From positions 26,749 to 90,748 of IMG/VR virus record IMGVR_UViG_3300012000_000008: a DNA stretch of 64,000 bases, one strand, 5' to 3'. The notes below the pieces were generated by a model. The model was not told the origin of the DNA, did no database searches, and worked only from the letters and a program-made list of their open reading frames with translations. Positions within the stretch are counted from its first letter, which is position 1, and every line of letters begins with the position of its first letter. Shown in pieces: positions 6,187 through 52,611 of this stretch. The position numbers were made by a program, and so were the translations under genes. The DNA is from a virus.

Positions 6187-6961
6187 ATTTTTTATACTCC
6201 TCAATTAATTTTTTTAAAGTTAAAAATTTATTTTGAGGTGCATCGTTTTTGTTATTTAAAATATAGGGGTCGAAATTATTTTTTAATAGTTGATCATTAG
6301 AAAACCATGGTTTTTTCTTACCAACAAAATGAACTATTTTTGCAGTTTTTAGAGTGTTAAGATTTAAGTTTTCAGTAGTTACAAGATATTCTTCAGGCAA
6401 TTTATATGTTTTATTTTTAAAAATTTTATTAAACACCCCTTGATTACCATGCCATTTAAATTTTGTTAATAAAGAAATAGCTTCATTATAATTCTCTTCA
6501 GTTAAATATTTTTTTCCTATAACCATTAATCCTGCATTAAACCCCCCATTAAAATTTAAGATTTTTTCATCAGCTTCAGTCATTTTTTGATTTATAACTG
6601 CACAGAAATCATGATTACAATTAAAAAGTAAACTTATGTCACCTCTGCAAAGCATATCTGTATCTAAATAAATGACCTTATCATATTCAGATAATAAGAA
6701 TATTTCAAATCTGCAAGCAGGGGTTAATGACCAATTGTACGAAAACCTTAAATTTTTCTTATATTTAAGCTTGTCAAAATATTTAAATTCTATATTTTTA
6801 TAAATTTTTAATAAGCTTTCTTTATTTTCCTTTTTGAAATTTTTTTCAACAAAAATTAAATACGGTATTTCTAATTTATTATGTGTAATCAAGCTTTTTA
6901 AAAAGATTTTCATACCAGGTATAAAATCTTCCGTTACAAAAGAAACAAAACACATTTTCAT
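6179..6961 (-). CDS. Glycosyltransferase family 8-like protein
   Basis: 260 residues with GT8 landmarks: CFVSFVTEDFIPGMKIFLKSL at the N-terminus, KVIYLDTDMLCRGDI (DxD metal site, near residue 98), GGFNAGLMVIGKKYL, HGNQGVFN and a C-terminal VHFVGKKKPW. These positions bind UDP-sugar and Mn2+. It overlaps both neighbours by a few bases in a minus-strand operon with the amidotransferase and the next glycosyltransferase. A close relative occurs at 12590-13384. Confidence 0.8.
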   Translation of the reverse strand: MKMCFVSFVTEDFIPGMKIFLKSLITHNKLEIPYLIFVEKNFKKENKESLLKIYKNIEFKYFDKLKYKKNLRFSYNWSLTPACRFEIFLLSEYDKVIYLDTDMLCRGDISLLFNCNHDFCAVINQKMTEADEKILNFNGGFNAGLMVIGKKYLTEENYNEAISLLTKFKWHGNQGVFNKIFKNKTYKLPEEYLVTTENLNLNTLKTAKIVHFVGKKKPWFSNDQLLKNNFDPYILNNKNDAPQNKFLTLKKLIEEYKKYV

Positions 6962-7713
6962 AAATAAATTAACGAATCATCGGTATTTAATAAAAAAAAA
7001 TTTTTGTTATAAAAAACTTCTTTTTCATATTCTTCTACTGCTGCTAGAAGCACTTTATGAGGATTAAAAATAACTTTATTATTCTTAACGGTTTTTCCAA
7101 AATTATGATAAATTTTATTTATTATATTTTTTACAATTTTAGCAGGGCCCGCAATCAAATCATCTCTTAAAATAGCATTAGAACAAAAAGATGTTTTATC
7201 AATACATTGTTTTTCAATAGTAATTATCTTCTCTTCAGATAAAAAAGTTTTTAACCATTCTGTTTTAGAACAAAATAAATTGAGTTTATTAAAATTAAAA
7301 TTTATTTCTTCTTTTATTAAGCAATCTGGTCTTGTTAAAATTATAAAATCATAACTATTATCAACTAGTTCTAATACTTTATTTTTTTTTCTTAAAGACT
7401 TTAATTGATTTAAAAATGCTGCAGTTAAATTATTTAAAAATAATTTTGAAGCTATATTTTCCTTTGATCTTAAAGTAGAGTCACAAATTTCGTCTTCTTT
7501 TTCCAACACAATTTTTTTAGTATTTGTTAAGCTAAAGCTATATTCAGATACCAAATCTTTAAAATTATAAAACCTTTTATCATTTAAATAAGATTTAGTG
7601 GTGTAACTATGAATAAAAATATCACAATTGTATTTTTTTATTGTTTTTTCTAAACCAATTTTACAGTACGGATAATGTCTAAAATGGCCGGCTAAACATA
7701 GAGCAGTTTTCAT
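6958..7713 (-). CDS. Putative glycosyltransferase, 251 aa
   Basis: The N-terminus TALCLAGHFRHYP, followed by CDIFIHSYT and later YDFIILTRPDC, fits a family of small nucleotide-sugar transferases seen in phages and giant viruses; the aspartate-containing TRPD segment resembles a GT-A DxD region. No signal peptide. First gene of a three-gene minus-strand operon (4-nt overlap with the GT8 gene). Family assignment is by pattern only; enzymatic role inferred from the company it keeps. Confidence 0.5.
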   Translation of the reverse strand: MKTALCLAGHFRHYPYCKIGLEKTIKKYNCDIFIHSYTTKSYLNDKRFYNFKDLVSEYSFSLTNTKKIVLEKEDEICDSTLRSKENIASKLFLNNLTAAFLNQLKSLRKKNKVLELVDNSYDFIILTRPDCLIKEEINFNFNKLNLFCSKTEWLKTFLSEEKIITIEKQCIDKTSFCSNAILRDDLIAGPAKIVKNIINKIYHNFGKTVKNNKVIFNPHKVLLAAVEEYEKEVFYNKNFFLLNTDDSLIYL

Positions 7714-16716: not shown

Positions 16717-17076
16717 ATGAAACTCATAGTACCTTTTATTACTTTGCAAGAACAACTCAGAGTATTTCACTGGCAAAGCAACACATATGGCCAACACAAA
16801 GCTTTTGGCAAAGCATATGAACACTTGGGCGATCTCATTGATTCTTTTGTAGAAGTATATTCTGGTAAATATGGCAAACCCAAAGCCAAATTAAAATATA
16901 ATTTTTCACTGAGTAATTTTGAAGAAGGGTATGTGGAATTTATTGACAGCGGTTTAAGCTTCCTGGATTCTTTAGAGGAGGACCTGGATCTGGCCAAGGA
17001 CAGTGATTTGCTTAACATTCGTGATGAAATGAAAGCAGTGTTGAATAGATTGAAGTACCTGTTAACATTGAAGTAA
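16717..17076 (+). CDS. Conserved phage protein of the DUF5856 (Dps/ferritin-like) type, 119 aa
   Basis: All-helical. LQEQLRVFHWQSNTYGQHKAFGKAY followed by LGDLIDSFVEVY has the H-W...H...D pattern of a Dps-like four-helix fold, and this small version is frequent in T4-like phages of marine and freshwater hosts. Whether it still binds iron is uncertain. AATAAATA lies 6 nt before the ATG. Confidence 0.65.
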   Translation: MKLIVPFITLQEQLRVFHWQSNTYGQHKAFGKAYEHLGDLIDSFVEVYSGKYGKPKAKLKYNFSLSNFEEGYVEFIDSGLSFLDSLEEDLDLAKDSDLLNIRDEMKAVLNRLKYLLTLK

Positions 17077-17429
17077 TGCAACACGGTTATTGGAGTTATT
17101 GTAACACAGGAAAATGCTCTGTGTGCAATACACCATGGCCTGTAAAATTTAAAAGCCCCACAGTAACATATTTGGAATCAACAGGTTATTGCAACAACTA
17201 CCGTTCTGTATATTTTCCTAGCAATGCAGGTGATGGTTTGGAGCATGTAGGCGGGGTTTTTCATGGCGGTGAGTTGCAGCTACCTGCAGGTATCACAGGA
17301 GAAGAATTAATACTTTTAAGAAAGCAATTGAATGAAGATTATAAACACTTGGAGGGTAGATCAGGTGGTTTAGAAGAATGTAAAAAAAGAAGTGCCTTGG
17401 AAGGTTATAATCTGGATAATATTAAATAA
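17076..17429 (+). CDS. Hypothetical Cys-containing protein, 117 aa
   Basis: Overlaps the previous gene by 1 nt. N-terminal CNTGKCSVCNTPW and a later CNNY suggest a small zinc site; the C-terminus is a charged helix. No named family. It ends just before the tRNA cluster. Confidence 0.5.
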   Translation: MQHGYWSYCNTGKCSVCNTPWPVKFKSPTVTYLESTGYCNNYRSVYFPSNAGDGLEHVGGVFHGGELQLPAGITGEELILLRKQLNEDYKHLEGRSGGLEECKKRSALEGYNLDNIK

Positions 17430-43156: not shown

Positions 43157-43595
43157 AAAAAAATATCCTAAAGGTTCTGCAATTTGTTCTAAAAGCCATT
43201 TAAAAATGGCGCTGTATGATTGGAACAAAGAAAAAAATTGGGATAGCAAGAATTCATTCATTTATTCTTTTGAAGACAAGGGGTATATTTTCTATGCATT
43301 TACCACCAGAGAACCCAGACACTGTACTATAAGACATTTCTTTGTTTTGGAGGAATACAGAGGCAAAGGTATAGGCAGAAAAATTATTGAAATGGTTAAA
43401 ACTCACATGAGAATGAGAAGTATAAAGAGATTTAGATTTTTTTGCAACAAGCCTGCCATTGAATTTTATACAAAATTAGGATTTAAATACCAAGGTGAAA
43501 GTAAGCAAGGGCTGCCATTTGTTTATTGCGATAGAGACACATTGAAAAGTATAAAAGATAAAAAACAATTAAAAAAATTATTTAAAGTTTATTAA
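43110..43595 (+). CDS. GNAT acetyltransferase, 161 aa
   Basis: RHFFVLEEYRGKGIGRKIIE is the acetyl-CoA pyrophosphate-binding motif A (R-G-x-G-x-G), followed by FFCNKPAIEFYTKLGFKYQG (motif B). The start lies 47 nt inside the amidohydrolase gene in another frame. Substrate unknown. Confidence 0.8.
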   Translation: MTSMQEHLKELLLQLEKKYPKGSAICSKSHLKMALYDWNKEKNWDSKNSFIYSFEDKGYIFYAFTTREPRHCTIRHFFVLEEYRGKGIGRKIIEMVKTHMRMRSIKRFRFFCNKPAIEFYTKLGFKYQGESKQGLPFVYCDRDTLKSIKDKKQLKKLFKVY

Positions 43596-44005
43596 TTCCA
43601 GCTTTCTTTTTTAGCCCCATAATATTCTCTTGCATATCCACCATCTAATAGTAACTGTCTTAAACTTTTACCATCCACAAAGACATCTCCTAAAATTCTA
43701 CCTCCAAACTTATCCCACGTTATAACTTGAATTTTTATATCTTTGGCATTTTGTATGAGATTTTTTGTAAAAAAGCATGCTTGTTCTCCCATTTGATTCT
43801 CATGTTCACTATGTGCTCTGAATCCTTTTTCTGGTGTATCCACACCCCATATTCTTACTTTAAGTTTATTGCCTAATTCTTTGGGTAAAAAATCTACTTG
43901 AACTTCTACTGTGTCTCCATCTATGGCTCTTGTCACTTTCCAAGTGTATAATTCTTGACCGAAAGACATGGAACATAAACATAAAAATAAAAATAATTTT
44001 TTCAT
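43592..44005 (-). CDS. Secreted thermonuclease (SNase family)
   Basis: 137 residues. Signal peptide MKKLFLFLCLCSMSFG, then TRAIDGDTVEVQVD, VRIWGVDTPEK (catalytic Arg and Asp), GEQACFFTKNLI and LLLDGGYAREYYG. The family cleaves DNA or RNA with Ca2+. It would act in the host periplasm or outside the cell, perhaps for nucleotide scavenging or exclusion. Confidence 0.85.
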   Translation of the reverse strand: MKKLFLFLCLCSMSFGQELYTWKVTRAIDGDTVEVQVDFLPKELGNKLKVRIWGVDTPEKGFRAHSEHENQMGEQACFFTKNLIQNAKDIKIQVITWDKFGGRILGDVFVDGKSLRQLLLDGGYAREYYGAKKESWN

Positions 44006-44008
44006 TTA

Positions 44009-44437
44009 TTAAACAACAGCACAAGCTTTTTGATACTGCTGAACAACATTACTGTGCAATTCTCTCCCATACTTTAAATCATCTTTTTCCACAGGGCATC
44101 TAGATTTTCTCATTAATTCTAAAGCCTCTTTTCTGTTTAAAAACCTATCTTTATCAGTGTAAAAACCATCAACAAATCTGTCATAATAGTTTCCTCTGTC
44201 TCTAAAGTACTCAAATGATTTTTCATCATTTACAGGAAAATCATAATTTTCTTCTTGATGCATCACAAAAAATGCATCATAATGGCTGTCCCCGGTGTAA
44301 ATATAGCCTGTTTTTTTATCATAAATAGCTGCTGCAATTATGTTTTCACCTGTATAATTTATTTGTGTATATAAAGGTGAAGGTCTTATAACAGACATCT
44401 CCATAATAATCATATCTAAAACTTTATTAAATTTCAT
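44009..44437 (-). CDS. Hypothetical protein, 142 aa, with capsid-targeting-like N-terminus
   Basis: N-terminus MKFNKVLDMIIMEMSV has the hydrophobic-x-x-hydrophobic-x-E arrangement seen at the starts of its four upstream neighbours. The rest (IIAAAIYDKKTGYIYTGDSHYDAF) is beta-rich and acidic. No family recognised. 3 nt from the nuclease gene. Confidence 0.5.
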   Translation of the reverse strand: MKFNKVLDMIIMEMSVIRPSPLYTQINYTGENIIAAAIYDKKTGYIYTGDSHYDAFFVMHQEENYDFPVNDEKSFEYFRDRGNYYDRFVDGFYTDKDRFLNRKEALELMRKSRCPVEKDDLKYGRELHSNVVQQYQKACAVV

Positions 44438-44527
44438 TTTTATACATAGTTATTTATTATTAAAAATTTTAAACTAAGTAAATAACCTTATGGATTGGAT
44501 GGATATTTATTTAAAAGAACTTGTACA

Positions 44528-45619
44528 TTATTTTTCTGCAGACATATCAACAGCTTTATTAAAAATTAAACCTTTTGCATACTCCCTTAATTCTTCACTA
44601 GTTACTTCTTCGCCTGAGGCAATGTTAACTACGCTCAAATTATCCACCTCTCCTCTGCCATAAGGATCATTTTCATCAAATTTCACATCTCCAAAAGCTC
44701 TAAATCTTAAACCATTATGGACAAACTCTACATCAATGTCATCATATGGGCCCCACCCTGGCTTTTGTTCAGCATTTTCATCTCTATTTAAATGTTCTTC
44801 TCTTGGATCTTTTTTAGCTAAAGAATGAATGTATTGATGGGTGTAAGGCAATTCCTTGGAAAGTTTTTTTATTTGAACAGGGCCTTTGTTAATATGTAAT
44901 TTTAGTTTTTCAAATTCTTTAGCAGGCATTTCAGCATCTTCACTATGTTTATGCTTATCTTGTGTGCACCCAGCATAATCAGCCTTGCATCTGCCACATG
45001 ACCAAAATTTACCCTTGAGCTCGGGGTATGTATTTTCAATGGCTTGTACTGCTTTGTCAGTAAGCACCACTTGTCTCTTGCCTTGAATTGTTTCTACATC
45101 AAAAATGCCCTCCTCTACACCCTTATCAACTTGTAATTTTTTAGAGCTAGTATCAAAACCACCTTTGGACATGTCAGTAATAATGTCTTTGTATTTGGAG
45201 ACATTTAATTCTTCTGCATTCTCTTCTGCATCCTTAATCTTCTCATCCCTCTCATTCTCTCTATCCTTATACTTGTCCATGGCTTGATCAAACTTGGTTT
45301 TTCTTTGATCTGCATAATCTTCCGAATTTTCGGTGGGTGCGTGTCTATATAGGTTTCTTAATTCATCTTCCGGAAGCCCGGAATTTCTTAATTGATTGAC
45401 CAATTGCTTGGCTTCTACAGATTGCTGAGGTGTTACATGTCCTCCTGCTTTTTTTACATCGGTAAAAATAGAAATTAAACGCTCTTTTAGTTCCGGTATT
45501 TTACTCTCATCAGGAAGACCATATTTGACCATTCTCATTATGTTTGAGCCCAATTCTTTTTTAGTTTTAGAGAGATTGTCTATGTATGATTCAAATATAA
45601 GATGCGCATCTTTATTCAT
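44528..45619 (-). CDS. Probable head-packaged protein, 363 aa
   Basis: N-terminus MNKDAHLIFESYIDNL: L-I-F-E resembles the T4 prohead-protease site [LI]-x-E. The body is highly charged, with a coiled-coil middle (residues ~100-150) and a Cys/His cluster (SCGRCKADYAGCTQDKHKH, residues ~211-229) that probably binds zinc. Late-type AATAAATA lies 7 nt upstream. Unknown activity. Confidence 0.55.
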   Translation of the reverse strand: MNKDAHLIFESYIDNLSKTKKELGSNIMRMVKYGLPDESKIPELKERLISIFTDVKKAGGHVTPQQSVEAKQLVNQLRNSGLPEDELRNLYRHAPTENSEDYADQRKTKFDQAMDKYKDRENERDEKIKDAEENAEELNVSKYKDIITDMSKGGFDTSSKKLQVDKGVEEGIFDVETIQGKRQVVLTDKAVQAIENTYPELKGKFWSCGRCKADYAGCTQDKHKHSEDAEMPAKEFEKLKLHINKGPVQIKKLSKELPYTHQYIHSLAKKDPREEHLNRDENAEQKPGWGPYDDIDVEFVHNGLRFRAFGDVKFDENDPYGRGEVDNLSVVNIASGEEVTSEELREYAKGLIFNKAVDMSAEK

Positions 45620-45625
45620 GTTTAA

Positions 45626-46399
45626 TTATTTATTGTTTGGAAATAATTTAAAATCAAATACTTTTTCAAAGGTTTTGGGGTCTTGCTTGTAATGCTCTTT
45701 TGATTCATCATGTGAATTAGTAGTATATTGCCAGCAAAACGATAATTCATCTGGTACCTTGAATCCGAAGAATTTAAATACATCCTTCTGTATATCTACT
45801 ACAGCTTGATCATTCCAATTATGGCCAATACCTACAAACCCTGCATCAATATTATCTAATAAATTCTTTTCATTTAAGGTGGTATGTCTATTCTCAAGCC
45901 AGGTTAATCTTTCAATTAATTTCTGATATATACTATTGGCTTGACCCCATCTCACGCTTGCAAAGAACACAACGCAATCAGACTCTAGAAGCGGTTTGGA
46001 TATTTTCCAGAGCTCATCATCCTTATTGTTAATAGAAGCCCAGCAGCGATGATGACCTGATGGATTTTTATTTTTATCTTTCAAAGCCGCATCCTTAGTA
46101 CCACAGTGATTACCATAACGCGAAGATACATTACCCTCGCAACAATGTATAGTTAGTAGAGGCACTTCAATTAACTTAATATTTTTATCCGCTAATTCAT
46201 TTCTTAAATGATACGCAAGTAAAGTACTCTTAGGCTTATCATCTTTATGGCCTTCCCACCGATTAGAGGTAGTTAAAAATAATATATTTTCTTTTGTTTT
46301 AAGATATTCTTTAAAATTTTTTATAGAGCGCTGCACTGGTGCAGGACTGGAGTTAATTTTCTCCGTTATCATTTGTAAATATACTTGCTCTAGATTCAT
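45626..46399 (-). CDS. Flavodoxin-like / NADPH-dependent FMN reductase-fold protein with capsid-targeting-like N-terminus
   Basis: Residues 1-13 (MNLEQVYLQMITE) resemble a T4 capsid-targeting peptide. From residue ~38 the fold is flavodoxin-like: ILFLTTSNR (phosphate loop), STLLAYHLRNEL, VPLLTIHCCEG, and DCVVFFASVRWGQANSIYQKLIERL (the 'SP.YW...S...K..iDR' region). It presumably binds FMN. The stop and start overlap by 4 nt with the upstream gene. Confidence 0.65.
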   Translation of the reverse strand: MNLEQVYLQMITEKINSSPAPVQRSIKNFKEYLKTKENILFLTTSNRWEGHKDDKPKSTLLAYHLRNELADKNIKLIEVPLLTIHCCEGNVSSRYGNHCGTKDAALKDKNKNPSGHHRCWASINNKDDELWKISKPLLESDCVVFFASVRWGQANSIYQKLIERLTWLENRHTTLNEKNLLDNIDAGFVGIGHNWNDQAVVDIQKDVFKFFGFKVPDELSFCWQYTTNSHDESKEHYKQDPKTFEKVFDFKLFPNNK

Positions 46400-47463
46400 T
46401 GGCAGTGGTAGTTTTGAAACCTTCTCGCAGCTTTAGCAGTTGCATTATTTTTATTCTTTTGTCTTGCATGCAAAGCTCTGGCCTTAGAACAAGTAACTTT
46501 GCCTTTTACTTGGCGCTTTAATATACCTGGTCTCACAGGATCATGTATGTTCTTTTCATGAATAGGGTTCTTTCTAGTTAAAACAAAATCAGTAGCATCA
46601 TGTGTGCCATGGCCTGGTTGTGTTGTAAAAATAGATTTTTTAGCGTGAGTAAATCCCAATCTGTCAGCGAATTTTTTAATCAGTCTCTCATATACTTTTT
46701 CTCTGCTTGAAGAATACATCTCATCTTCTAGTAAGTTACTCTTGCCAGACGCAGAAAATGATACTAAATTAACTTTGTAGTTTTCAATAATATCTTTTAT
46801 GAATGCCATGGCATTATTTAATACAGAAGAAACATCTGCATCACCTACCATAGAAATAGAACCTCCATGTTTTGGATCATTAATTGTCTTAAAAGTAATT
46901 TCTGCAGCAGGTAAGTTATCTATGTGTAATTTAGAAAATGCTAAGAGCTCTCTTTTGGAAGGCTCTTTGTCTGGCTTGGGAATAGCAACAACAGCATTAT
47001 ACTCATATATAACAGGCTTACCAATTTTGTTTTTTATTGTTGTATAGTATGTAACTTCTTCTGCTCTTACTCCTCCTTCTGAATCATAATCTTTCATTGG
47101 TTCAATGACCCAGTTTGCCTTTGTTTTTATATTGGGAAAAGATTGAAATAATTCTAGCAATACACTTTCATTTAACTTATGCTGTGATCTAATAATTTGA
47201 TCATACTTATGTTGACCTAGAGATTTTTGAATTTGATTCCATTTAGATTTCCATTGAGTTAATAGGGTTGATGGTACTTCTTTCCATGATGTCCACGCAT
47301 CTTCATTCTCAGGGGTAACAACAGAAACTAAATCTGGTGTCCAAGTAGCACCAGTAGATTGTCTTCCTTTAGGTGTATGCACTATTTTAAAAGTCTTTCC
47401 ATAATTAGAATCCCAATCTATAGGTTGTCTGGATTCAGTAAAAAATTCTTTAAACGTTTTCAT
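46396..47463 (-). CDS. Probable head-packaged protein, 355 aa, with T4-like capsid-targeting N-terminus
   Basis: MKTFKEFFTESRQP is strikingly like the T4 internal protein leader (MKTYQEFIAEA), with a possible cleavage after FFTE. Middle part alpha/beta; the C-terminus is very basic with Cys/His (GKVTCSKARALHARQKNK, RRFQNYHC), typical of a DNA-binding tail. Overlaps both neighbours by 4 nt. Confidence 0.65.
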   Translation of the reverse strand: MKTFKEFFTESRQPIDWDSNYGKTFKIVHTPKGRQSTGATWTPDLVSVVTPENEDAWTSWKEVPSTLLTQWKSKWNQIQKSLGQHKYDQIIRSQHKLNESVLLELFQSFPNIKTKANWVIEPMKDYDSEGGVRAEEVTYYTTIKNKIGKPVIYEYNAVVAIPKPDKEPSKRELLAFSKLHIDNLPAAEITFKTINDPKHGGSISMVGDADVSSVLNNAMAFIKDIIENYKVNLVSFSASGKSNLLEDEMYSSSREKVYERLIKKFADRLGFTHAKKSIFTTQPGHGTHDATDFVLTRKNPIHEKNIHDPVRPGILKRQVKGKVTCSKARALHARQKNKNNATAKAARRFQNYHCQ

Positions 47464-48530
47464 ACAGGCTTCACATATCCAATCTTATTAAACTTAACCC
47501 CTAAAATTTCTTTATGTGCTTGAATCTTGGCTTTAATTTTAATCTTAGCACCTATTTGATCAGTAGGAAACTTGTATGTGATAAATTTATTACCTTGTGC
47601 ATCTTTTAATTTATAAACATTATAACCAGGTGAATATTGATCCCTTGGAGGTACAAATTTGTAATTATATAATTCCAATTCACCTTCATAACGATCTCCA
47701 ACCTTACCCACGTACTGAGCTGTAGAAGTTTCCTGATTCTTTTTAGTGACATCATCATAATACATCTGAGCAAAAGCTTGTATGGCTTGAGCAGTGTCTG
47801 TCTCAGCATACTTGGGGTCAGCATTCTTAGCAAGAAATGCAAAGTATCCAGGATCTTCAAGGTAAACATCTGGGAATGATTTGCCTCTATATTTACCAAA
47901 AGTAAACACAGGTGTAGCTTTAGATCTGCCTATTAAATGTTCTCTGGTTTGATCTCCATACAACTCTACTCTTACATTCTTAACAACGCTTCTTGATAAA
48001 GCTTTTTGAACTGATGTAACAATGTCTGTAGATAGGTTGCCAAAGTAAATAGGATTCTTAATCCAATTGCGTATTGCAGCTGGTAGTATTCTAAATCTCC
48101 AGAAAGTGTAGTAAACTTGATGCTTACCAGTTACATCAATAAAGTAATAGTTTTCTGGCCCGTCTTTTGGGTTGACCACAGCATCATTATGCTTTTTTAA
48201 CATTTCATATGCTTTATCTTTTTGTTCTTGGGGTACTTCTTTCCAAGGTAGAATACCACCAGTAGCTACTGCACCTTCTGCATTCTCAGCTTTGGCTAGT
48301 TTATCATAATACTTTGGGTCTTCAAATAAATGATCCATAGCAATTTTTCTTGCAGTTACGTTATTACCGGTATGTTCGTGCTCTACTTTAATTCCTTTAT
48401 CTAATTGAGCTTGAAGAGTTTTAATATCTACATTATGTTTTTTAGCCAAATCTTCTAGTGTTTTGCCTGCAGCCAAACCTTTTAAATTATAAGCTTCAAA
48501 TATAAGATATGAATCGAGGTCTAAAGGCAT
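47460..48530 (-). CDS. Multidomain probable head-packaged protein, 356 aa (DUF5661 and exoX-C-like parts)
   Basis: N-terminus MPLDLDSYLIFEAYN has the I-F-E leader motif. Residues ~45-78 (GIKVEHEHTGN...IAMDHLFEDPKYYDKL) match the DUF5661 pattern. VFTFGKYRGKSFPDVYLEDPGYFAFL is like the exodeoxyribonuclease X C-terminal domain, and the end (IGAKIKIKAKIQAHKEILGVK) is OB-like. Perfect TATAAATA 5 nt upstream. First gene of the operon. Confidence 0.65.
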   Translation of the reverse strand: MPLDLDSYLIFEAYNLKGLAAGKTLEDLAKKHNVDIKTLQAQLDKGIKVEHEHTGNNVTARKIAMDHLFEDPKYYDKLAKAENAEGAVATGGILPWKEVPQEQKDKAYEMLKKHNDAVVNPKDGPENYYFIDVTGKHQVYYTFWRFRILPAAIRNWIKNPIYFGNLSTDIVTSVQKALSRSVVKNVRVELYGDQTREHLIGRSKATPVFTFGKYRGKSFPDVYLEDPGYFAFLAKNADPKYAETDTAQAIQAFAQMYYDDVTKKNQETSTAQYVGKVGDRYEGELELYNYKFVPPRDQYSPGYNVYKLKDAQGNKFITYKFPTDQIGAKIKIKAKIQAHKEILGVKFNKIGYVKPV

Positions 48531-48535
48531 ATAAT

Positions 48536-48543
48536 TATTTATA
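48536..48543 (-). promoter_or_regulatory. TATAAATA promoter of the head-protein operon
   Basis: Minus-strand TATAAATA, then attat, then ATG (48530). Exact T4 late consensus; fits late expression of virion components. Confidence 0.75.
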
Positions 48544-48680: not shown

Positions 48681-49202
48681 ATGGGAAATAATGGTGACCT
48701 GCCTGTGGAAAGCGGAAAAGCTTATACAGGCCGTGTAGTTCCAAGCTTTACAGCTTGGCCATCGCTAAGAGATGAATTCCTTACACCTTTTGATAGGGTA
48801 TTCGATAAACTAACTAGTGACTTATTCCCTAGCTTGTCTAAGGAGTTTGGTATTGGTTTGTTTGAGAAGGAATCTTATCCTAAAGTTGACATTATTGATC
48901 ACAAAGATCGTGTCTCTATTGAAGCAGAGATTCCTGGTCTGAAGAAAGATCAAATTACTGTTGACGTAAAGGATGGTGTTTTAACTATCTCAGGTCAGAA
49001 GCAATCCAAGAGAGAAGAACAAGAAGAAGGCAATTACGTTCGCAGAGAACTGAAACGTAGTTCATTCCGACGTTCTTTTGCATTGGGTGATAATCTAGAT
49101 CATGACAATGTTAAAGCACAATTCCAAGATGGAATCCTGGTCATTGACGTTGCAAAAGTCAAGCCTGTGGAAACTAAAGCCAAGATCATTGATATCAAAT
49201 AA
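48681..49202 (+). CDS. Hsp20-family small heat-shock protein
   Basis: 173 residues. The alpha-crystallin domain runs from about residue 68: YPKVDIIDHKDRVSIEAEIPGLKKDQI, then VKDGVLTISGQ, RSSFRRSFALGDNLD, and the A-x-x-x-n-G-I-L closing strand FQDGILVIDV. ATP-independent holdase for unfolding proteins. The N-terminal ~65 residues are the variable oligomerisation arm. Strong SD and terminator suggest high expression, independent of neighbours. Confidence 0.9.
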   Translation: MGNNGDLPVESGKAYTGRVVPSFTAWPSLRDEFLTPFDRVFDKLTSDLFPSLSKEFGIGLFEKESYPKVDIIDHKDRVSIEAEIPGLKKDQITVDVKDGVLTISGQKQSKREEQEEGNYVRRELKRSSFRRSFALGDNLDHDNVKAQFQDGILVIDVAKVKPVETKAKIIDIK

Positions 49203-49399: not shown

Positions 49400-49465
49400 A
49401 TGCTAAAAGATTGCATGATGCTAGCAACTTTATTGCTAGAGAATGGAGTACAAGCCGCATTCTGA
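49400..49465 (+). CDS. 21-aa mini-ORF (leader peptide-like)
   Basis: The frame starts at ATG 49400, preceded by GGGAGGA (49387-49393) at good spacing, and ends at TGA 49465, inside a terminator hairpin. The peptide is MLKDCMMLATLLLENGVQAAF. TAAATA box 5 nt before an ATG at 49383 gives the likely transcript start. It could be a real micropeptide, or a leader whose translation controls the terminator and hence the downstream PEP-CTERM operon. Confidence 0.5.
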   Translation: MLKDCMMLATLLLENGVQAAF

Positions 49466-49480
49466 GTGCGGCTTTTTTAA
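49453..49480 (+). terminator. Terminator overlapping the mini-ORF stop
   Basis: AGCCGCA (49453-49459), a 7-nt loop, TGCGGCT (49467-49473), then T6. It lies between the mini-ORF and the PEP-CTERM genes. Confidence 0.8.
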
Positions 49481-49490
49481 TGATCAATTT

Positions 49491-50990
49491 ATGAAAAAAC
49501 TAATAGCAATACTAACATTAACTGCTGCAGCAGTTCTTAACACCAATGCTAATACTATTCTCATAGACTTTGGTGCTTCAGGTGCAGGGTGGTATGGAGG
49601 GGCATCTGTGGTAGGAGCAGACGCCAATGGCAATTACTGGAACAGCATTACTTCTGGTTCCTACTATTCTAATCTGTTAGATACCACAGGCACTGCAACT
49701 ACTGTGAGTGGGTTTGGATTCATGACTGGCATGGCGTTTAATAGTTATAATGGCCCTGCGGGTGCTACTTCCAATCCTCTGACTCAAGCACAGATTAATG
49801 CAACTGTGTTTACATCAGGTGCTGGTATTTTTGGAGTTAAAGAGGCATTAGTCGATTACATAGCAACTACAACCAGTGTACCAAGTGTAAGATGGAGCAT
49901 AGACAATTTAGATACATCCTCCTTATATACAGTAAAATTTTATGGGTCAGCAAAGTTTCAAAATGATTATGCTACTAAATTAAGAGTATATAGTGACAAT
50001 ACTTTTGGTTTAGGTAGTCTGCTAGCCACTGCAACTGCTAATTATCAAAGCCCCACTCAATCCTGGGTGATTAATACTGCTGATATTGGTGTACTAAGCA
50101 ATTTAACTACCACTGGTTCTCTTTATTTTGAAATGACTGGTGCCAACGGAGGCACAGGTATCATAAATGCCATGAGCATTGAAACTGTGGCTATTCCTGA
50201 ACCTAATACATATGGCTTGTTAATGCTTGGATTTTTATTAATATGGATTATGAAAACCATAAACAAAACTAAAGCTGGAGTACTGGTTGCATTGATTGCC
50301 ATTTGCAGTTTAGCTCCAGCACATGCTCAACTTTTAATTAATTGGGATCTACCGACCAGCTCAACAAACAGAAGTGTTGTTTCTAATTTTAATGAAAAAG
50401 GTCTATCTTCTAGCACCATTGAAATGGCATCAGGAATCACGCCATCAAGTATTTCAAATGCTTGGGGAGGAATAAGCTGGACCTCTGGTGGTACTGATCC
50501 TTTTAATAATGCTACAACTAACAATGATTATTTCGCTTTTAGCATAACAGCTAATTCTGGATACCAAGTAACAATAAACGGGGTTTCCAATCTTGGCATA
50601 CAAGTAAGCGCTTCAGGACCAAGATATTGGCATTTGCTTTACAGTACAACTAATGATAATGGTGCATTTATTAATCCTCTTAGGAATTATGGCCCCTTTG
50701 AAGTATCAATACCAACCACTTCTAGTTTAATCACAGACATTACAAATGCATTGAATGCTTCATTTGCTGCAAATCCTATCACTATTTCTGAAGCAACAGG
50801 GTATTTTCGTTTGGTTGGTTATGGAGGCGCTGTAAGTTCTGGAAGTGGGAGAATTGCAGCTGCAGGAACTAATGATTTTGGATTGGTAGGATCTGTATAC
50901 ACAATACCAGAGCCTTCAATTGTTAGCCTTGCTCTTGTGGGACTTCTTGCTCTAAGAAAGAAAATTTATGAAAACAACAAACAAAACTAA
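49491..50990 (+). CDS. Two PEP-CTERM secreted proteins fused in one frame, 499 aa
   Basis: Start at 49491 gives a signal peptide MKKLIAILTLTAAAVLNTNA. Residues ~230-250 are a PEP-CTERM tail (IPEPNTYGLLMLGFLLIWIM), followed without stop by a second signal peptide (MKTINKTKAGVLVALIAICS) and a second secreted protein ending in another PEP-CTERM tail (IPEPSIVSLALVGLLALRKK). Both halves are beta-rich extracellular proteins. An ATG at 50250 could restart translation. Function unknown, probably matrix-associated. Confidence 0.75.
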   Translation: MKKLIAILTLTAAAVLNTNANTILIDFGASGAGWYGGASVVGADANGNYWNSITSGSYYSNLLDTTGTATTVSGFGFMTGMAFNSYNGPAGATSNPLTQAQINATVFTSGAGIFGVKEALVDYIATTTSVPSVRWSIDNLDTSSLYTVKFYGSAKFQNDYATKLRVYSDNTFGLGSLLATATANYQSPTQSWVINTADIGVLSNLTTTGSLYFEMTGANGGTGIINAMSIETVAIPEPNTYGLLMLGFLLIWIMKTINKTKAGVLVALIAICSLAPAHAQLLINWDLPTSSTNRSVVSNFNEKGLSSSTIEMASGITPSSISNAWGGISWTSGGTDPFNNATTNNDYFAFSITANSGYQVTINGVSNLGIQVSASGPRYWHLLYSTTNDNGAFINPLRNYGPFEVSIPTTSSLITDITNALNASFAANPITISEATGYFRLVGYGGAVSSGSGRIAAAGTNDFGLVGSVYTIPEPSIVSLALVGLLALRKKIYENNKQN

Positions 50991-51687
50991 AACTGGTTTG
51001 CTTGCTGCATTGCTGGCCATCTTTAGTCTAAACACCATTAATGCAGAAATTATATTCACAGAAGACTTTGAGGATGGTGCATGGACTGGCTTCAGTTCCT
51101 ACCCTTCAGCAAATACTTCAGTACTCAACTCTGGTGATACCATATATGGTGCACCTGCCACTGGTGCCCCTGGAACTTACATTGTAGCTCCTGGTGGCTC
51201 CAAACTGGGTAAAATGTGGCCATTATACTGGTCACCAGGCAATGTGACCACATCCACATTTGTTCTGTATAATGACTACTATGCAACACCTGAAACTGGA
51301 TGGGTGCCTTATTTGCAAGGCAAACAAGTAAAAATATCCATGGATGTGTACATATCCAGCTATGATCCCATGCAAGCCAGCACTGATGTGAACATATTTG
51401 CCAAGTTCTTTAACCAGGACTATTCATACTACTATGATTGGGCATCAGTAATTACTTCTGTCAAAGATACCCTGCTAGACACATGGGTAACCAGAGAAAT
51501 AACTGTAACTGTGCCCAATGATGTTTCCATCATACAGTTTGGATTGGAAATGACTCAAAAAAATTATAGCTCTGGAGCTGTTAATGTTGATAACATGGCA
51601 ATTCAAATAGTACCAGAACCTTCAGCAGGTGCTTTGATAGTAGCTGGTACTGGTTGTTTGGTAGCCCTCAGAAGGTTCAGAAAATAA
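50968..51687 (+). CDS. PEP-CTERM sorted extracellular protein, 239 aa
   Basis: Signal peptide MKTTNKTKTGLLAALLAIFS is nearly the same as the one inside the preceding gene, a sign of duplication. The mature part starts with IIFTEDFEDGAWTGF, resembling carbohydrate-binding jelly-roll domains, and ends VPEPSAGALIVAGTGCLVALRRFRK, a full PEP-CTERM signal (PEP, hydrophobic helix, basic end). Overlaps the preceding gene by 23 nt; 1 nt from the glucanase. Confidence 0.8.
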   Translation: MKTTNKTKTGLLAALLAIFSLNTINAEIIFTEDFEDGAWTGFSSYPSANTSVLNSGDTIYGAPATGAPGTYIVAPGGSKLGKMWPLYWSPGNVTTSTFVLYNDYYATPETGWVPYLQGKQVKISMDVYISSYDPMQASTDVNIFAKFFNQDYSYYYDWASVITSVKDTLLDTWVTREITVTVPNDVSIIQFGLEMTQKNYSSGAVNVDNMAIQIVPEPSAGALIVAGTGCLVALRRFRK

Positions 51688-52611
51688 ATGATAAGAGTTG
51701 CACTCTGCATTCTGCTATTTCTGCATGCTAGCATGGTGCAGAGTGCAACCTATCAACTGGTGTGGCAAGATGAATTCAATCAATTCACCAGTGGCACTTA
51801 CAACAGATGGGACGTTGATAGAAATGCATGGAATGTGGAAGTTGTTGATAATCCTAATAACAATGAAATTCAGCAGTACAGAGATAACAGAGACAATGTA
51901 AGAATAGAAGTAGATACTTCCAACACTTCTGATGGTATTCTTGTGTTAGAGGCCAGGAGACAGAACTTCTCTCAAAACCTGGGAGCATGGACTTCAGGCA
52001 GAATCAATACCAAGAACAAGATGGAAATAACTTATGGCAAGGTTGAAGTTTCTGCTAAATTGCCTTCCTTGCCAGGTAGCTGGCCAGCCATATGGATGCT
52101 GGGCAGCAATTATGGCAGTGCAGGATGGCCTGCCAGTGGTGAAATTGATATCATGGAAATGGGACGCAATACAGGGTGGAACTATATAAACAGCACTGTG
52201 CACTGGGAGTATAATGGCCATGCTTCATATGGCACAGGTAACTATCAGTCTGGTTCTCCATTGCTTTTAAATTCAGCATCCACTGCATTTCATGTTTATG
52301 GATTAGAGTGGACACCAGATTTTATAAAAACATATGTGGATGGCAATTTGTTATGGACCATAAACATGCCTGTGCCTGGTATTGATCCTTTTGATAATCC
52401 TTTCTTTATGATTCTTAACAATGCCATGGGTGGTGATATTGGAGGCACGGTAGATTCTTCTAGCAACATTTCTCGTATGGAAGTGGATTATGTAAAGGTA
52501 TACCAATCAGCTGACATAGCTGGCAACACCTTGGCAATCCCGGAAATGCAAATAAATCATTTGCTTATAACTAGCTTGCTGTTGTTATTAACAAGGAGAA
52601 ATAGTTTATGA
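51688..52611 (+). CDS. Secreted GH16 beta-glucanase (laminarinase type) with PEP-CTERM-like end
   Basis: 307 residues. Signal peptide MIRVALCILLFLHASMVQSA; LVWQDEFNQF (N-terminal GH16 strand), GSWPAIWMLGSNYG, and SGEIDIMEMGR, where E-I-D-I-M-E holds the nucleophile and acid/base glutamates. The end IPEMQINHLLITSLLLLLTRRNSL (in parts: IPEM, hydrophobic stretch, TRRNS) looks like a degenerate PEP-CTERM tail. It would cleave beta-1,3(4)-glucan outside the cell. Overlaps the next gene by 4 nt. Confidence 0.85.
   Translation: MIRVALCILLFLHASMVQSATYQLVWQDEFNQFTSGTYNRWDVDRNAWNVEVVDNPNNNEIQQYRDNRDNVRIEVDTSNTSDGILVLEARRQNFSQNLGAWTSGRINTKNKMEITYGKVEVSAKLPSLPGSWPAIWMLGSNYGSAGWPASGEIDIMEMGRNTGWNYINSTVHWEYNGHASYGTGNYQSGSPLLLNSASTAFHVYGLEWTPDFIKTYVDGNLLWTINMPVPGIDPFDNPFFMILNNAMGGDIGGTVDSSSNISRMEVDYVKVYQSADIAGNTLAIPEMQINHLLITSLLLLLTRRNSL

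Follow-up and report, generated by a model that had tools for sequence, protein, structure and literature searches.

Five adjacent genes very probably encode late proteins that carry T4-type capsid-targeting sequences, would be cut by a gp21-type prohead protease and would keep their cargo with the DNA. They span positions 44009-48530 of the window, the 64,000-nt stretch of DNA analysed here, which comes from an uncultured T4-like bacterial virus. This explanation builds on the observed leaders, their swaps between relatives, the conservation of the site, the protease and scaffold genes of relatives, and late promoters. All five ORFs lie on the minus strand, with N-termini as quoted in the initial annotation (a slash marks the predicted end of each leader):

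44009..44437, minus: gene 1, 142 aa; leader MKFNKVLDMIIME/M, then cargo without a known fold
44528..45619, minus: gene 2, 363 aa; leader MNKDAHLIFE/S, then cargo with a Cys-containing segment
45626..46399, minus: gene 3, 257 aa; leader MNLEQVYLQMITE/K followed by a domain resembling flavodoxin/quinone reductases
46396..47463, minus: gene 4, 355 aa; T4-like leader MKTFKEFFTE/S and three modules; candidate capsid-targeted polyprotein
47434..47463, minus: gene 4 leader, residues 1-10; predicted cut after FTE10
47460..48530, minus: gene 5, 356 aa; leader MPLDLDSYLIFE/A, DUF5661 at residues 27-82, conserved cargo at residues 94-356
48495..48530, minus: gene 5 leader, residues 1-12; predicted cut after IFE12

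Leaders and their predicted cleavage sites

The leaders are 10-13 residues long and each closes in hydrophobic-x-E, with the key glutamate at residues 13, 10, 13, 10 and 12 in genes 1 to 5, which bears out the earlier claim of such a site near residues 9-14 in all five. The T4 proteins IPI, IPII, IPIII and Alt, which are expressed late and have diverse cargo, possess N-terminal propeptides of 7-19 residues with key positions 4 and 7 and an L/I-x-E cut site at 8-10 (PMC9026906). The P3 residues of genes 1 to 5 are I, I, I, F and I, so that four of the five (genes 1, 2, 3 and 5) fit the gp21 motif L/I-x-E exactly (PMC9026906), whereas the F-T-E of gene 4, with a P3 residue that is neither L nor I, counts against the exact motif there. 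Gene 4 has F at both targeting positions, 4 and 7 (MKTFKEF), and its start, MKTFKEFFTES, fits the T4 sequence MKTYQEFIAEA quoted in the initial annotation position by position, except for F at residue 8; the resemblance to T4 internal proteins pointed out there holds. The leaders of genes 1, 2, 3 and 5 differ from the T4 type in sequence but are similar in length and hydrophobic pattern.

As stand-alone evidence, the loose motif [LIF]xE was rejected: with E at residues 9-15, it occurs in 10-17% of genes compared with about 9% in other stretches, only about 1.1- to 2-fold background in the genomes G000-G003. Being so close to background, it is uninformative for single genes, although its presence in five of five adjacent genes is still unlikely. 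In the 217-kb relative G001, the 'MKxFKEF..E' class accounts for five starts against 0.04 expected, and the '..LIFE[ASN]' class for six starts against no internal matches in 66,492 residues. A further regular expression for class-A leaders, M..F....LLE, was dropped as too loose (1-3 matches expected by chance). In IMG/VR, a codon-degenerate MKTFKEF pattern was found in at least 120 stretches, compared with four for the permuted peptide. Similarly, of 76 matches to the LIFE-class pattern, 62 are start-like and 53 have TAAATA no more than 35 nt away, whereas none of the 16 matches to its permuted counterpart is start-like or accompanied by TAAATA. The MKTFKEF matches include some noise, such as L142, a CHAP-like protein that lacks a suitable site. 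Within the MKTFKEF set, 104 of 116 distinct proteins have [LIVMF]xE at residues 9-17, whereas a control stretch gave 12 of 116 (p=3e-37; because of some redundancy among the IMG/VR sequences compared, this and the later p-values overstate independence). When the glutamate is at residue 10 (n=58), residue 8 is one of LIVMF in 55 cases and residue 11 is S or A in 42, a combination of hydrophobic P3 and S/A at P1' that, judged from sequence, is as would be expected for a T4-like cut at L/I-x-E (PMC9026906). The 100 kb covered of Prochlorococcus phage P-TIM68 contain only one clear leader gene, suggesting that isolates may carry few leadered genes; this phage encodes a MKTYKEFIQDIQE/SSLSR protein (AIR93461).

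It appears improbable that the N-terminal helix instead serves as an uncut docking peptide for another part of the virion (tail, baseplate) or for the host membrane. Some leadered cargoes are indeed cell-wall enzymes, also a type of tail component, as exemplified by a G001 protein with a lysozyme domain behind a leader of the same type (MRFDDTVKSILE). However, leaders that are otherwise unrelated retain the glutamate together with the hydrophobic P3 and Ser/Ala P1' residues, and this site is found again at internal joins, where there is no free N-terminus.

Late promoters and the prohead protease

A late promoter, either TATAAATA or TAAATA, precedes three of the five genes:

48536..48543, minus: late promoter TATAAATA, 5 nt ahead of the gene 5 ATG
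45627..45632, minus: late promoter core TAAATA, 7 nt ahead of the gene 2 ATG
44451..44456, minus: late promoter core TAAATA, 13 nt ahead of the gene 1 ATG

The initial annotation had described an operon with a perfect late promoter. The promoter is present before gene 5, but the additional TAAATA sites ahead of genes 2 and 1 indicate that there are probably three separate late transcription units and not a single operon. The number of TATAAATA sites in the window is not above chance (13 compared with 9.1 expected) and was discarded as evidence; their non-random feature is their placement relative to the ATG, not their abundance. A gp55-like late sigma factor is encoded in both G001 and G002. 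The late promoters of this lineage lie 5-6 nt ahead of the ATG, a spacing that predicts leaderless late mRNAs; in T4, late promoters are placed at -13 to -6 (PMC1524935). A scan for ATAAATA across relatives yielded nothing beyond counts.

Promoters this close to the ATG constrain start regions, as would be needed if the leader were mere start-codon context (A/T-rich, on a leaderless late mRNA) without any role at the protein level. We nevertheless regard this idea as extremely improbable, because codon-degenerate patterns return more matches for the leader peptides than for their permutations, MKTFKEF leaders are also found with promoters about 20 nt upstream, and the site is kept at internal junctions.

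The prohead protease gene, for which the initial annotation had proposed a search, was found in relatives but not in the window's own 90.7-kb record, a fragment without head genes in which no S77 (gp21-type) protease was detected. The three closest large relatives, G001-G003, all encode an S77 prohead protease scoring above cut-off, whose gene adjoins those for a gp22-like scaffold and a gp23-like capsid protein. An S77 protease is also present in nine of ten large MKTFKEF contigs (eight above cut-off) and in only six of 11 large LIFE-class contigs, with those lacking a match being fragments of 73-95 kb. The proposal of T4-type capsid-targeting leaders with a gp21-like cut site is thus supported by the protease in relatives, the permuted-peptide controls and the leader swaps described below. 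The set of leadered genes extends beyond these five and beyond 44009-48530.

Exchangeable leaders, cargo and the modules of gene 4

Among relatives, a given cargo is found after different leaders, and a given leader type precedes different cargo. The gene 5 protein is 82-83% identical overall to homologues in L007, L033 and L006, whose leaders differ, and its cargo is joined to unrelated leaders in G001, G002, L007, L010 and L013, with similarity breaking at the leader; MKFDAIVSNILE, MKFDVLVDNILE, MAFDKDFKLLQEE and MDKDGQNIYGLYMES take its place in homologues. Gene 1 is 79% identical to L007 12696-13124, which bears the leader MKFNRLVEDILLE. About seven leader types are found in the gene 3 family. 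Of its 29 distinct upstream stretches, 28 contain [LI]xE; the remaining one belongs to an ORF whose start lies 24 bases from the end of a contig. As part of the whole capsid-targeting explanation, we consider it highly probable that the leader acts as an exchangeable tag, which recombination would shift between cargoes.

The diversity of cargo noted initially was confirmed, with DUF5661, ExoX-like_C, a modelled flavodoxin-like fold and a basic Cys/His tail all located. Gene 5 matches DUF5661 (E=5e-16), a part that forms a separate leadered gene in G001 (196850-197398), and ExoX-like_C (E=7e-7; residues 209-237, inside the conserved cargo); its predicted structure, of low confidence (pLDDT 63), gave only non-significant structural matches, with OB-fold proteins recurring among them. 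Gene 3 has no Pfam or PDB match by sequence. Its AlphaFold model (pLDDT 79, pTM 0.82) best matches SP1951, RosB, NQO1/NQO2 and azoreductases in the PDB (E down to 6e-7, TM only about 0.5), supporting a flavodoxin-like fold, as in NAD(P)H:flavin/quinone oxidoreductases of the flavodoxin-like superfamily; it has at least 306 relatives in IMG/VR and none among 50,697 phage records. The N-terminal cargo domain of gene 2 exists on its own in G001 as a leadered gene of 170 aa (214248-214760); gene 2 as a query retrieved no relatives from viral_contigs. Searches of Pfam, NCBIfam and PHROGs mostly assigned the cargo to no family or to families without known function, and the host defence models of PADLOC returned nothing meaningful. 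None of the cargo could be linked to an anti-defence protein already known, and the role in disarming host defences put forward in the initial annotation is not supported.

New in the present analysis is the fusion in gene 4, a candidate polyprotein composed of three modules:

47152..47463, minus: module 1 with leader, residues 1-104; end LNE99...LLE104
46555..47151, minus: module 2, residues 105-303; end IHE303
46399..46554, minus: module 3, residues 304-355; basic Cys/His module KNIHDPVRPGILKRQ...NYHCQ

These modules are partly separate and tagged in L007. Module 2 is 55% identical to the leadered gene L007 10273-10929 (leader MKTFKEYFLTE), the module 1/2 join LLE104/LFQSFPN corresponds to LTE/LFQSIPD of that gene, and module 3 has a stand-alone leadered counterpart (MKFDKLVNTLLE/KN). 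An L/I-x-E site is found at both traceable joins. Module 3 is preceded by [LIVMF]xE in 39 of 43 complete distinct contexts, compared with a background of 12% (p=1e-24); for internal fusions, the figure is 13 of 16 (p=4e-9). Based on these joins and the conserved site ahead of module 3, we propose that such fusions represent capsid-targeted polyproteins, with the modules of gene 4 probably separated by the same prohead protease at the L/I-x-E joins. Some [LI]xE sites lie within cargo domains, indicating that not all of them are usable.

Proposed delivery route and known systems

We strongly infer from the sequences that the five proteins are packaged and cut. The amphipathic leader of 10-13 residues would bind the scaffold core during head assembly and thereby bring the protein into the prohead, where the S77 protease would cut after hydrophobic-x-E, freeing the mature cargo from the core; in gene 4, several modules would enter behind one leader before being split. 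The cargo would then remain with the packaged DNA and most likely be ejected alongside it. Its injection into the host is likely by analogy with T4 and with an MKTFKEF-tagged protein outside the window that carries an ART-PolyVal domain; any effect there would be hypothetical.

Considerably less probable is a variant in which the leader does target the prohead and is cleaved, while the cargo is made up of core, scaffold-like or DNA-condensing components of the head, which would be retained or degraded instead of injected. The T4 core proteins gp22, gp67 and gp68 share the same core and largely the same protease (PMC9026906). Moreover, module 3 is small and basic, like T4 internal proteins, and L-x-E sites lie close to the N-termini of both the scaffold protein and the protease of G001. 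However, core structural proteins are usually conserved, whereas the cargo differs strongly from one close relative to the next and includes enzyme-like folds, namely the flavodoxin-like fold and, on proteins with the same leader types, lysozyme and ART-PolyVal domains.

Non-DNA deliveries of tailed phages into cells are known for few isolates only. A tag that is readable from sequence and whose protease is encoded in genomes of this kind would allow likely injected proteins to be catalogued: hundreds of related viruses attach tags of this sort to dozens of proteins that are unrelated to one another, and the 119 longer MKTFKEF-tagged proteins among the matches listed alone make up 62 clusters of unrelated cargo. 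The fusions, with their conserved cut sites, point to an easy means of packing several proteins behind one tag. There is perhaps an even chance that exchangeable capsid-targeting tags form a general delivery code in T4-like phages of environmental bacteria, some of which would deliver together polyproteins cut in the prohead at L/I-x-E joins, with the late genes of the window's lineage read from leaderless mRNAs. In the open-access literature, no paper joins the capsid targeting sequence with metagenomics, and capsid targeting and cyanophages are joined in a review only.

In phiKZ and SPN3US, ejection proteins are similarly cut by a gp21-type protease after a short x-x-E, with several cuts within one propeptide and, in SPN3US, a preference for P1' serine (PMC5694885, PMC10052503). 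However, SPN3US uses A-x-E, most propeptides exceed 100 residues, and an exchangeable tag of 10-13 residues is undescribed there. Polyvalent proteins and head-packaged ADP-ribosyltransferases are likewise multi-domain and predicted to be co-injected with DNA, and share the ART-PolyVal domain with the tagged protein mentioned above; in the parts of the source consulted, they are recognised by gene neighbourhood and MuF/portal fusions rather than by a leader, with no mention of protease sites between modules (PMC9503650). With the T4 internal proteins, finally, the proteins described here share the short N-terminal propeptide, the L/I-x-E site, late expression and diverse cargo. They differ in that their cargo has no match to T4 internal proteins, in having further leader classes (MKFD...LLE, MNKD.HLIFE and MISL..LLLE), a single leader that occurs with at least 62 cargo clusters and fused multi-module cargo, and in belonging to an only distantly related lineage, whose major capsid protein shares about 34% identity with cyanophage gp23. 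The T4 system with which phage heads are loaded with foreign proteins would be widened by natural tags taken from many lineages.

Gene layout and late transcription

The five minus-strand genes proposed in the initial annotation are present at 44009-48530 of the window (bases 26749-90748 of an IMG/VR virus record totalling 90,748 bases). Each starts with a leader, a tag of 10-13 residues ending in hydrophobic-x-E.

44009-44437, minus strand: gene 1
44528-45619, minus strand: gene 2
45626-46399, minus strand: gene 3
46396-47463, minus strand: gene 4
47460-48530, minus strand: gene 5
43592-44005: Staphylococcal-nuclease-like (SNase) gene immediately downstream of the leadered set, its product with a signal-like N-terminus; position kept in compared locus L007

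Their description as a single operon with a late promoter holds for genes 5, 4 and 3, which form one unit behind TATAAATA (48543-48536) because they overlap end to start (5/4 at 47460-47463, 4/3 at 46396-46399), but probably not for genes 2 and 1, which have TAAATA sites of their own 7 and 13 nt upstream. A divergent HSP20-type small heat-shock gene (48681-49202) is also a neighbour in L007 and the close relative G003. Beyond it lie two proteins with PEP-CTERM-like sorting motifs (49443-51687; weak Pfam matches) and one resembling GH16-type glycosidases by eye (51688-52611), with similar genes in G003.

Across the window's genome (G000) and its close large relatives (G001-G003), TAAATA lies exactly 5 or 6 nt from the ATG at 96 of 180 sites in the 60 nt before an ATG, for example at window 48536-48543 (ATG at 48530). 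As TATAAATA is placed at -13 to -6 (PMC1524935), this spacing would put the transcript start at the A of the ATG or one base before it. From this, and with Shine-Dalgarno-like motifs before only 6-8% of genes, the late mRNAs of the lineage are predicted to be leaderless. Promoter distances in the MKTFKEF-leader set, mostly from other lineages, peak near 20 nt.

Leader classes, predicted cut site and protease

A loose [LIF]-x-E with the glutamate at residues 9-15 was rejected as an above-chance signal, being found in 10-17% of genes versus roughly 9% elsewhere. Late promoters are commoner at such genes in G001 (p=8e-5), G002 (p=0.017) and G000 (p=0.042); no excess was seen in G003. Taken as defined classes, leaders exceed chance. 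The genome-wide search suggested initially found them well above expectation in G001, with five MKxFKEF-type starts against 0.04 expected, and six LIFE[ASN]-type starts with no internal matches. Throughout IMG/VR, degenerate MKTFKEF codons gave at least 120 stretches versus 4 for the permutation MFKTEFK, and the MxxDxHLIFE codon pattern 70 versus 16 for its permutation; 62 of 76 MxxDxHLIFE matches were start-like and 53 of 76 had TAAATA within 35 nt, versus no control match on either count.

T4 gp21 cuts after L/I-x-E, and in the T4 IPIII tag residues 4 and 7 serve targeting, 8 and 10 processing (PMC9026906). Among 116 distinct MKTFKEF proteins, [LIVMF]-x-E ends within residues 9-17 in 104, versus 12 in residues 31-41. 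Of the 58 with E10, 55 have L, I, V, M or F at residue 8 and 42 have S or A at residue 11; other proteins keep the site, moved by two or three residues (NLDE↓A, QLDE↓S, INE↓A; ↓, predicted cut).

The window's phage is T4-like. G001 (217 kb) carries consecutively a gp23-like capsid gene (44355-45851; product about 34% identical to cyanophage gp23), a gp22-like scaffold gene, a 50-aa ORF and a gp21-type (S77) prohead protease gene, and both it and G002 encode a gp55-like late sigma factor. The protease, whose gene the initial annotation proposed to seek, was found in G001-G003 and G005. It occurs in 9 of 10 large contigs with MKTFKEF leaders (8 over the cut-off) and in 6 of the 11 large ones with LIFE-class leaders, versus 0 of 3 permuted-control contigs, a co-occurrence that is support rather than proof, since the records are fragments and the control small. 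Leader classes against controls, site conservation, protease genes in relatives and the leader exchange described below thus lend good support to the original idea of targeting and cutting.

Leader exchange and cargo diversity

The gene-5 cargo (the part behind the leader) begins near residue 90, and homologues with unrelated leaders (MKFDAIVSNILE, MKFDVLVDNILE, MAFDKDFKLLQEE) align to the protein with 82-83% identity. In G001 the DUF5661 part is encoded on its own, as a leadered gene. Relatives of the gene-3 family number at least 306 in IMG/VR, whereas 50,697 phage records yielded none; the family's N-termini fall into about seven leader types. [LI]xE occurs in 28 of 29 distinct stretches upstream of the family's cargo, the sole exception being an ORF starting 24 bases from a contig end; with a 45% background in 20-residue stretches of the family, position therefore matters more than count. 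Modelling gives the gene-3 cargo a flavodoxin-like fold whose nearest matches are FMN/quinone reductases and azoreductases; at a TM of about 0.5 it is assigned at superfamily level only.

MKTFKEF cargo forms 62 BLAST clusters, 45 of them single, including ART-PolyVal (E=1e-23) and lytic transglycolase-type domains and, by eye, nucleotidyltransferase-like and HNH-like proteins. Nothing points to a named anti-defence function for the cargo, and the suggested role against host defences is therefore not supported.

Outside the window, G000 has a further leadered gene (6856-7461; MEKKFIKLFE↓ATLSRYTRGGFL) with TAAATA upstream, adjoining gp25-like and clamp-loader-like genes; its G001 and G002 homologues retain the leader shape. 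G001 16822-17388 and G002 147753-148286 share alike leaders (MRFDDTVKSILE, MRFKEIFEKLLE) and an alike Pro-rich linker on different proteins, a phage lysozyme and, by eye, a SleB-type cell-wall hydrolase. In Flavobacterium phage immuto (L003, 5923-6681), protein N-termini read MKKSQLRQIIKEA and MKKLIRIVEA, and the MKKSQLRQIIKEA protein combines a DUF5661-like part with a relative of the last gene-4 module; Bacteroidota phages may thus have an additional leader type.

Gene 4 as a candidate polyprotein

We propose, from its module boundaries, that gene 4 encodes a polyprotein with predicted cuts at its joins. L007 has a separate gene, starting MKTFKEYFLTE↓LFQS, that matches residues 105-301 (window join, LLE104↓LFQS); the next gene there, MKFDKLVNTLLE↓KNIHDPVRPG, matches residues 304-355, the basic Cys/His module 3 (window join, IHE303↓KNIHDPVRPG). 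At 74 further loci module 3 stands alone behind about 15 different leaders or within larger proteins behind unrelated modules. [LIVMF]xE immediately precedes it in 39 of 43 complete distinct contexts (background 12%), including 13 of 16 internal ones; the others keep the glutamate, with A or S at P3. A gene-3 family fusion (L205) likewise contains an intact internal leader, ISLNDLLLE↓AKLPQ. In G001, a HiPIP-like segment precedes module 3 (E=0.004, below the cut-off). SPN3US gp53 and gp54 are precedents for a single head protein being cut more than once, in their case within propeptides.
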